Of a stretch of DNA of 37,682 bases, positions 4,641 to 24,588 are shown piece by piece; positions within the stretch are counted from its first letter, which is position 1, and the number at the start of each line of letters is the position of its first letter. The stretch is taken from assembly GCA_024709845.1 (NCBI GenBank), contig JANJVX010000108.1:1-37682 (forward strand), read 5' to 3'. Under the pieces are notes generated by a model. The model was not told the origin of the DNA, did not search any database, and worked only from the letters and a program-made list of their open reading frames with translations. The position numbers and the translations under genes were made by a program. The DNA comes from Burkholderiaceae bacterium. Lineage in GTDB: Bacteria; Pseudomonadota; Gammaproteobacteria; Burkholderiales; Burkholderiaceae_C.

Positions 4641-4724
4641 TTCAGCCCCGGACTGTTGCCATGGCGCCCTCCTGAATGTCCATCTCCGACAGCCTCCTTG
4701 CGCCCTTACCTGGAATCTGGCAGC

Positions 4725-21682: not shown

Positions 21683-21723
21683 GGGCGCAGAATGGGCAGG
21701 CATTCATAGATTTTACGGTGAAC

Positions 21724-23199
21724 ATGCCCGCCAACTACCACTCGGGACTGGTCTGGTTCCGGCGCGATCTACGCGCCAGCGACCATGCGGCCCTCCACCA
21801 TGCCCTGCGCCAATGCCAGCAGGTGCATTGCGTCTTTGTCTTCGACAAAGCCATCCTGTCTCCCCTGCCACGCGCCGACCGGCGGGTGGCATTCATCCGC
21901 GAATCGCTGGTGGAACTCGATGAGCACCTGCGCAGTCTCAGCGGACACCGGGAAGGCGGGCTGATCGTTCGCCATGGCCTGGCCTGCCACGAAATTGCCG
22001 AAGTGGCTCGAGCCCTGGGTGTGGACGCCGTGTTCACCAACCACGATGACGAACCCCTGGCCCTGGAGCGCGATTCCCAGGTCCGGTCAGCACTGGCGAC
22101 CGATCGCCGCGCCTTCCATACCTACAAGGACCACACCATTTTCGAGCGCACCGAGCTGCTCACCCAGGCTGGCGCACCGTATAGCGTGTTCACGCCTTAC
22201 AAGAATGCCTGGCTGCGCAAGGTGAATGCCTTCTATCTCGGCGCCTACCCAGTCAAAGCGCACGCCCATGCGCTGGCGCCTCGTCCCACATGGGCCCACG
22301 CGGCTGTTCCAATGCTGGAAGATCTGGGATTTGAAAGCGGCCACCTGGACCTGCGCGTCCTGCCCGCAGGCAGTCGGGGCGGAGAGCGGCTGTTCAAGGA
22401 CTTTCTCGAGCGCATCGACCGATACGACCAGGCGCGGGACTTTCCGGCCGTCAAGGGACCCAGCTATCTCAGTACGCACCTGCGCTTTGGCACCCTGTCC
22501 GTGCGCCGGGTGGCCCGTGCGGCCCATGCGCTCGCCCAGACTGGCAGCAAGGGGGCAGCGGCCTGGTTGAATGAACTCATCTGGCGTGATTTCTATTTCC
22601 AGGTGCTGTTCCACCATCCGCATGTCGTGGCACGGAGTTTCAAGCCGCCCTACGACGCCATTGCGTGGGAGCAGGGCCCTTGTGCCGATGCATTGTTCGA
22701 TGCCTGGTGCCGCGGGCGCACGGGTTATCCGCTGGTGGATGCGGCAATGGCCCAGATCAACCAGTCCGGCTACATGCACAACCGCTTGCGCATGGTGGTG
22801 GCCAGCTTCCTCACCAAGGATCTGGGCCTGGATTGGCGCCGGGGCGAGCGCTACTTTGCAGAACACCTCAACGACTACGATCTGGCCGCCAACAACGGCG
22901 GCTGGCAATGGGCCAGCTCCAGTGGGTGTGATGCCCAGCCGTATTTCCGCATATTCAACCCGGTCAGCCAGAGTCGCAAGTTCGATCCGCAGGGACGGTT
23001 CATCCGGCGTTACCTGCCCCAACTGGCGGCCTTGCCAGACGCCGCGCTGCATGCCCCCTGGCTGGCCACCCCGCTGGAGCTGCAGGCAGCGGGCGTGAAA
23101 CTCGGGGATGACTACCCGCACCCGATCGTGGACCACGACAGCGCACGCGTACGGACCCTGGAACGGTACGCCGTCGTCAAACGCTCCGTGGAGCCGTGA
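21724..23199 (+). CDS. phrB: Deoxyribodipyrimidine photolyase
   Basis: LVWFRRDLRASDHAAL, ELIWRDFYFQVL, NGGWQWASSSGCDAQPYFRIFNP. Confidence 0.95.
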   Translation: MPANYHSGLVWFRRDLRASDHAALHHALRQCQQVHCVFVFDKAILSPLPRADRRVAFIRESLVELDEHLRSLSGHREGGLIVRHGLACHEIAEVARALGVDAVFTNHDDEPLALERDSQVRSALATDRRAFHTYKDHTIFERTELLTQAGAPYSVFTPYKNAWLRKVNAFYLGAYPVKAHAHALAPRPTWAHAAVPMLEDLGFESGHLDLRVLPAGSRGGERLFKDFLERIDRYDQARDFPAVKGPSYLSTHLRFGTLSVRRVARAAHALAQTGSKGAAAWLNELIWRDFYFQVLFHHPHVVARSFKPPYDAIAWEQGPCADALFDAWCRGRTGYPLVDAAMAQINQSGYMHNRLRMVVASFLTKDLGLDWRRGERYFAEHLNDYDLAANNGGWQWASSSGCDAQPYFRIFNPVSQSRKFDPQGRFIRRYLPQLAALPDAALHAPWLATPLELQAAGVKLGDDYPHPIVDHDSARVRTLERYAVVKRSVEP

Positions 23200-23214
23200 A
23201 GGCCACCGCCTGCA

Positions 23215-23379
23215 AGGAGCCTGTCGGACTTGGGGCGTCGAAAGCGAAAATCGACCCCAGTGGGACCAGTTTTTGACGGATTTGCAGTCTAATAGCCAAG
23301 CTATTGGGCAAAAAGACGGTGAAAAATGGGCCGCTGCGGTCAATTTGCAGCCGACGATTCCCATGTCCGACAGGCTCCT
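23215..23379. repeat. ~165-bp long imperfect palindrome / hairpin element between convergent phrB and pilU
   Basis: Terminal inverted repeats AGGAGCCTGTCGGACTTGGG / CCCATGTCCGACAGGCTCCT (19/20 complementary); partly complementary arms; central AATAGC-CAA-GCTATT (23291-23305) at the geometric midpoint. Confidence 0.85.
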
Positions 23380-23430
23380 AGGCCAGGCGCAACTCGGCGA
23401 CGCCCGGTGGGACCCGCGCGTTGCTGCAGA

Positions 23431-24588
23431 TCAGTGGGGACCGGGCGGAGGAGCTTCTTCGTCGTCGCGAGCCATTTGCATGCCTTCGACGCCCAGTGAC
23501 GCCCCCGCCGCCAACCGCATGCGCAGCGTCACATCGGTCTTGTTGTCCGCGTTGGCGATAGCCTCGGCCTGCGTGATCTCGCCGCGCTCGAACAACGAAA
23601 AAATCGACTGGTCAAAGCTGCACATGCCCACCTCGCCGCTGCGCTCGATCGCGGTCTTGAGCCCCTCGATCTGTCCTTTCTGAATCAGGTCGGACACGTA
23701 ATGCGACAACAGCATCACCTCGACGGCCGGCACCAGCTTCCCCCGTGTGCCCATGATGAGCCGCTGGGCCACGACCGCCTTCAGGTTGAGAGAAAGATCC
23801 ATCAGCAGCTGGTTGTGCGCATCTTCGGGGAAAAAATTCAGGATGCGCTGCACCGCCTGGTTGGCGTTGTTCGCATGCAAGGTGGATACGCAAAGGTGCC
23901 CGGATTCGGCATAGTGCAAGGCATGTTGCATGGTGAGCCGATCCCGGATCTCTCCGATCATGATCACATTGGGTGCCTCGCGCATCGCATGGCGCAGTGC
24001 CTCGTCATAGGAAAGCGTGTCGAGCCCCACCTCCCGCTGGGTCACCAGCGACTTCTTGTGCGTATGCAGGTATTCAATGGGGTCTTCCACTGTCAGGATA
24101 TGTCCGGCCGTGTGCTCATTGCGGTAGTCGAGCATGGATGCCAGCGTGGTGGATTTGCCCGAACCGGCCGCGCCAACCGCCAGCACCAGCCCGCCCTTCA
24201 GAAAAGCCAGCTGCTTGAGCACGGGCGGCAGCCCCAGTGCCTCCAGCGACGGGATTTTCGGGGAGACATAGCGCACCACCATCCCCACCTGGCCCCGCTG
24301 CAGATGCACATTGACCCGGAAGCGGTCCGTCTGCCCGGTCTGGAACGCAAGATCGCATTCGAGGTGTGACTCGAACTCCTCGATCTGCGCCTTGCGCATG
24401 ATGGAAAAAGCCAGTTCACGCACGTCCTGTGCTGAAAGTGCACCCGAGTCCATCGGCATGAAAACACCCTGCCGCTTGAGCGTCGGAGGGGCTCCGGCTG
24501 TCAGGAACAGGTCGGACGCTCCCTCGTGCACCATCTGCGCCAGGAACGAAAGCAGCCGGGGATCTCCCGAAGGGGGCTGTTCAATCAT
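23431..24588 (-). CDS. pilU: Type IV pilus retraction ATPase, PilU-like (PilT/PilU family)
   Basis: 385 aa; GAAGSGKSTTLASMLDYRNEH, TVEDPIEYLH, REAPNVIMIGEIRD, CVSTLHANNANQAVQRI. Confidence 0.88.
   Translation of the reverse strand: MIEQPPSGDPRLLSFLAQMVHEGASDLFLTAGAPPTLKRQGVFMPMDSGALSAQDVRELAFSIMRKAQIEEFESHLECDLAFQTGQTDRFRVNVHLQRGQVGMVVRYVSPKIPSLEALGLPPVLKQLAFLKGGLVLAVGAAGSGKSTTLASMLDYRNEHTAGHILTVEDPIEYLHTHKKSLVTQREVGLDTLSYDEALRHAMREAPNVIMIGEIRDRLTMQHALHYAESGHLCVSTLHANNANQAVQRILNFFPEDAHNQLLMDLSLNLKAVVAQRLIMGTRGKLVPAVEVMLLSHYVSDLIQKGQIEGLKTAIERSGEVGMCSFDQSIFSLFERGEITQAEAIANADNKTDVTLRMRLAAGASLGVEGMQMARDDEEAPPPGPH

Follow-up and report, generated by a model that had tools for sequence, protein, structure and literature searches.

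The closest known MITE to the element described here is MITEPye1 of Paracoccus yeei, and the closest known behavior is that of the Rickettsia palindromic elements (RPE). MITEPye1 is a 159-bp element without a transposase gene, with a long stem-loop and flanking direct repeats, and its 18-bp ends resemble those of IS1182-family ISs (PMC11578231). The IS1182 family includes IS1272, and some of its members target inverted repeats (PMC5678879). RPE are ~150-bp elements that encode a peptide segment and lie in frame in unrelated metabolic genes (PMC10969869). Here, we analyzed a palindrome in a 37,682-nt stretch of Burkholderiaceae DNA (hereafter the window). By its ends and flank, which are those of IS1182-family ISs, it is an IS1182-type MITE, close to MITEPye1. 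Our best explanation, in which we have considerable confidence, is a non-autonomous MITE that would be recognized by IS1182-family transposases and that lengthens genes in frame. The boundaries, the copy families, the empty sites and the shared ends are established at the level of the DNA sequence.

The palindrome between phrB and pilU and its hairpin

The first-pass annotation placed a 165-bp palindrome between convergent phrB and pilU genes. Pfam domains and strands agree with this setting: phrB (DNA photolyase; PF03441 and PF00875) occupies 21718..23199 on the + strand, its stop codon preceding the element by 16 bp, and a convergent gene for a pilU/pilT-type twitching ATPase (T2SSE; PF00437) occupies 23431..24588 on the - strand, with its stop codon 52 bp past it. 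Re-reading the sequence also bore out the palindrome, whose ends AGGAGCCTGTCGGACTTGGG / CCCATGTCCGACAGGCTCCT are 19/20 complementary and whose center, AATAGC-CAA-GCTATT (23291..23305), is perfect, with apical pairs that covary across the family. Its extent had to be trimmed, since the outermost A/T pair is flank. Alignments of 43 and of 143 copies, together with empty sites, delimit a 163-bp element (GGAGCC...GGCTCC; 23216..23378, + strand in the family's coding orientation). The left terminal inverted repeat, GGAGCCTGTCGGACTT (23216..23231, + strand), has the same 16 bp as IS1182-family ends, with G or C at position 2; the right one, which reads GGAGCCTGTCGGACAT on the - strand (23363..23378), has one mismatch to it (15/16). 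On the right side, the duplicated TA of the target lies at 23379..23380. The left flank is AA (23214..23215), presumably a decayed TA copy, TA being found here in 123 of the 143 copies. Elsewhere in the window, AGGAGGCTGTCGGAGAT (4682..4698, - strand) could be a decayed solo end, or a chance match, with 2 mismatches.

The element is short and encodes nothing transposase-like, as in a MITE. The earlier statement that no ORF explains the palindrome was correct as far as genes in the window are concerned, but it overlooked an open 55-codon cassette, GACRTWGVESENRPQWDQFLTDLQSNSQAIGQKDGEKWAAAVNLQPTIPMSDRLL (23216..23380, + strand), in the frame used by the family members that lie inside genes. An ORF at 23108..23683 (+ strand) spans the whole element unbroken and is not a gene here. 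Searching a plasmid collection with the element gave no match, and Rfam returned, for 23205-23393, only MIR4240 at 33.8 bits against a gathering threshold of 200. We rejected this identity as a perfect-hairpin artefact, far below threshold.

Folding both strands agrees with the proposal of one long hairpin. As RNA, 23205-23390 folds at -102.7 kcal/mol on the + strand, against -60.8 +/- 4.1 for shuffled sequences (z -10.3), and at -93.4 kcal/mol on the - strand (z -7.4); none of 200 shuffles matched the native fold on either strand. The hairpin is also conserved from end to end. Across 40 diverse copies, standard pairs fill 96.9% of the pair cells, 29 of the 63 hairpin pairs have changed on both sides, and the covariation score is 0.213, versus 0.099 for shuffles and at most 0.065 for slid partners. 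Non-Watson-Crick cells read on the + strand are G-U rather than A-C by 206:53 (about 17:4 per variable pair), and in 93 of 101 copies the + strand gives the better fold of the two. One reservation is that structure prediction used the + strand, which favors + in the G-U/A-C comparison. These observations suggest that a single strand, the + strand, matters, as sense RNA or as single-stranded DNA. For copies that stay active, we infer either selection on the transcribed strand or a single-stranded step.

Such stability, covariation and G-U bias, at a site between convergent genes, could also indicate a functional RNA hairpin at gene ends (a bidirectional terminator, an mRNA 3' stabilizer or an RNase III site for phrB and pilU), with mobility being incidental. 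We regard this as improbable. The bidirectional terminator proposed in the first-pass annotation did not hold up: a scan for intrinsic terminators found one weak internal site, about what is expected by chance (shuffle mean of 0.6), without the combination of a GC stem and a U-tract. The two genes are adjacent in many relatives of the genus, and wherever the whole junction was recovered (gaps of 30-121 bp) the element is absent. Besides, family copies occupy convergent, tandem and divergent gaps, with no orientation bias among the intergenic ones, as well as gene interiors. The structured RNA of the earlier proposal survives as a possible by-product, with some support from covariation and G-U bias. 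The window copy itself is a lineage-specific intergenic insertion that is most likely neutral, probably inert, and at most a 3' hairpin on both convergent mRNAs.

Copies, target sites and a candidate helper

We found matches to the element in 34 of 300 sampled genomes of the family, the full-length ones at 74-91% identity. Extensimonas genomes have roughly 90-105 copies each. Three of them (G136, G222 and G293, which our data indicate to be Extensimonas sp. H3M7-6, E. vulgaris and E. perlucida) have, respectively, 90 and 84 ends on the two strands (~87 elements), 106/109 and 109/104. Five genus-mates of the window genome have roughly 5-23 ends per strand. In the genome to which the window belongs, 79% complete and assembled as 302 contigs totalling 3.04 Mb, we found a single full copy along with isolated ends; among the latter, those at L005:1940-2000 and L073 (G000:C186 and C249) are apparently decayed copies. 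Among the matches listed in a pattern scan are Acidovorax, Polaromonas, Giesbergeria, Simplicispira, Alicycliphilus, Ottowia, Rhodoferax, Hydrogenophaga and Comamonas, and also MAGs labelled Nitrosomonas, Tepidiphilus and Hydrogenophilales. In a review, the genome paper of Polaromonas JS666 is given as a source on a MITE.

The family element has 163 bp, 16-bp terminal inverted repeats and usual flanks C-TA / TA-G, with C at -3 in 131 of 143 copies and G at +3 in 134 of 143 (~92% of sides). Of these non-redundant copies, 101 have exactly 163 bp and the others 100, 109, 181, 184, 202 bp and more, one route to such variants being a 63-bp deletion between directly repeated copies of GATTTGCAGCC. 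Two tandem copies have one TA in common. More complex arrangements include a composite 238-bp copy (a full element and a partial second one) in frame within a TamB gene (L120:5674-5912) and nested copies, one MITE having landed close to the apical TA of a second (L069:700-960, G136:C3).

Empty alleles reveal how the element is inserted. G222 has an empty site, ...CGGC-CTAT-GATG, where the filled Extensimonas orthologue reads C-TA-[GGAG..CTCC]-TA-T, and G293 has ...CC-ATAG-AAAT where the filled orthologue reads A-TA-[..]-TA-A. Comparing the CTAT and ATAG empty targets with the filled flanks hence gives TA as the target duplication, which answers the question of target-site duplications raised by the first-pass annotation, and CTAG as the preferred target. 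The duplication is seen at two sites with orthologous empty alleles, and again for a third insertion, which lies within another repeat. A 4-bp CTAG duplication was ruled out, because these targets give the flanks C-TA-G...C-TA-T and A-TA-G...C-TA-A. We also noticed a second family of palindromic repeats, of ~165 bp and with ends CTAGTGTAGTGTTCGACGCT, at L077:2818-2983 (G136) and at L052, L069, L070, L078, L079, L091, L156, L176 and L246. It is precisely missing at orthologous sites of G222 and G293. The 163-bp MITE inserts into one of these repeats (L083) and often adjoins them.

Which transposase could move the element? In G136, we identified a 1528-bp element with the MITE's ends and its C-TA / TA-G flank. 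It encodes a 452-aa transposase that matches the NCBIfam IS1182 model NF033551 at 383.8 bits (cut-off of 270) and has DDE_Tnp_1 and DUF772 domains. Copies of this IS are 97-100% identical in G136 and G222, and relatives with the same terminal repeats occur at 63% in G293 and at 62% in G225, which belongs to the window's genus. In all, five IS copies, whose transposases are 62-100% identical, bear the MITE's ends, with both ends seen on four of them and one recognized in G225. Close helpers occur only in the three Extensimonas genomes and G225; most sampled MITE-bearing genomes have none, and no close IS1182 transposase was found in the assembled part of the window genome. In two of three near-identical IS copies (L202:1230-1400 and L205:2950-3121), the IS abuts a MITE at one shared TA, which could perhaps reflect insertion at the hairpin foot, as reported for IS1272. 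We propose that IS1182-family transposases recognize the 16-bp ends of the MITE, that a transposase acting in trans would move it, and that insertion at CTAG-like sites would duplicate TA.

These results bear out the MITE-like architecture suggested in the first-pass annotation: dispersed copies are numerous in relatives, even if the incomplete window genome has a single full one, and they come with TA duplications, empty sites and an IS with the same ends. The same annotation suggested a BIME-like repeat, and a REP/BIME-type repeat mobilized by a RAYT (TnpA-REP) transposase would likewise be palindromic and often extragenic. This reading, already disfavored, seems to us scarcely credible. We found a single 163-bp unit rather than clusters of 20-40-bp REPs, and its 16-bp terminal inverted repeats, TA duplication and ends in common with IS1182 elements speak against it.

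Insertions inside genes

The length of the element has consequences for coding sequences. Together with the TA, 163 bp make 165 bp, that is, 55 codons, and 97 of 101 copies have no stop in the + frame (xTA-GGA-GCC...). Hence, an insertion in + orientation at an xTA codon would lengthen the host protein by 55 residues rather than truncate it. When 80 or more open codons were required on each side, 27 copies were in the + frame, 26 of which read through. Pfam domains on both sides or across the insertion identify the hosts as Mpl, UvrA, GloB, CysN-like, MltB, Mfd, CysH, PanE and PfkB proteins and a KefB-like antiporter, and also as PMT_2, SSF, TamB, AMP-binding and MFS proteins, a DinG-like helicase and an EcoO109I-type nuclease. 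We count about 20 real + frame cases inside conserved genes, some other candidates being spurious by eye; these calls rest on open frames and Pfam and were partly judged by eye. A codon-likelihood classifier was dropped because it mixed up the coding frame with its antisense shadow. As a control, we took 38 flank pairs from the remaining five frames; there were two Pfam hits among them, each at the end of a gene. By eye, one other-frame case looks real (L142, NAD(P)HX dehydratase-like).

Comparisons with solved structures and with an empty allele are consistent with lengthening. PanE aligns to a solved PanE, 3hwr, over residues 53-167 and 226-405; residue 167 falls opposite 133 of the structure and residue 226 opposite 137, which leaves only three structure residues in between. 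Since 3hwr lacks just that segment, the extra 55 residues predicted for PanE are the MITE. The MITE segment of GloB is likewise extra relative to 8ewo. One in-frame insertion is polymorphic within Extensimonas, with an empty allele in the same reading frame in G293. For about 20 genes, lengthening by 55 residues is thus shown in the sequences, and its expression is inferred. If the inserts are translated, peptides such as GQFLPDSQPHSGAMGQEDGK would be joined to the sequence of the host protein.

Is the element adapted to coding DNA? It may not be: in the version of our explanation without such adaptation, the MITE is passive, the open frame and the 165 bp are accidental, and purifying selection has left the harmless in-frame insertions. 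We put the chances of this version at about even. Substitutions between near neighbors show no bias against amino acid change, and we found no amino-acid-level selection on the frame. Avoidance of stops specific to the coding strand was considered and rejected, as the shortage of new stops is present in other frames too. Two of the six frames are open, which is fairly easy in GC-rich sequence. Frame compatibility may therefore be a passive, lucky property filtered by the host. Against this, the + frame outnumbers the other open frame (- frame 2) inside genes by about 20:1 (binomial P of about 0.001, ignoring the shared ancestry of copies). Site availability alone is unlikely to produce this bias, because the CTAG phases in genes are 47 for CTA-G and 27 for xCT-AGx. 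Moreover, where copies differ in length by larger amounts, the difference is divisible by 3 in 24 of 32 copies and in 11 of 18 distinct sizes (P = 0.014, shared ancestry again ignored). The + frame peptide is hydrophilic (GRAVY of -0.88, one Cys), whereas the second open frame encodes a neutral peptide rich in Cys; this is a plausible reason why host proteins tolerate the insert. A more ambitious version of the MITE explanation is that these are gene-invading palindromes that arose independently of those of Rickettsia: a whole-codon MITE mobilized by IS1182 elements, whose hydrophilic frame stays open and whose hairpin is under selection on the sense strand, could colonize coding sequences without killing genes. 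We hold this version tentatively, at somewhat less than even chances.

Comparison with described mobile palindromes

In-frame mobile palindromes are best known from Rickettsia, and here they occur in Comamonadaceae and neighboring taxa, including some cultured isolates. A candidate transposase and a target site make the spread of a transposon inside coding DNA testable, as are the effect of a 55-residue insert on core enzymes and whether it is the frame or the hairpin that is selected. There is also a warning for annotation, since proteins of these genera may contain a transposon-derived segment. We found no description of the 163-bp family in a literature search limited to papers outside subscription.

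The family resembles MITEPye1 in size class, lack of a transposase gene, IS1182-like ends, stem-loop and direct repeats. MITEPye1 is described as having 1-3 chromosomal copies, mainly intergenic, with 4-bp repeats, and in-frame gene insertions are not mentioned in that description (PMC11578231). In contrast, the 163-bp MITE reaches about 100 copies, duplicates TA and occurs in many genera. IS1272 replaces stem-loops without duplication (PMC5678879), whereas the 163-bp MITE and its ISs add TA. ERIC and QMITE are also hairpin MITEs that are sometimes intragenic with open frames; likened here by description only, they have rarer in-frame intragenic copies in the cited accounts (PMC10969869, PMC5896051).

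In behavior, the family is like RPE, with in-frame insertion in about 20 unrelated genes in one fixed frame. It differs from them in sequence and lineage, and in having an identified target, a duplication and a candidate helper IS. Searching NCBIfam with two consensus peptides gave no match up to an E-value of 5, in a release that may lack RPE models. We classify the family among the IS1182-associated MITEs, with gene insertion of the RPE kind, rather than as an RPE.
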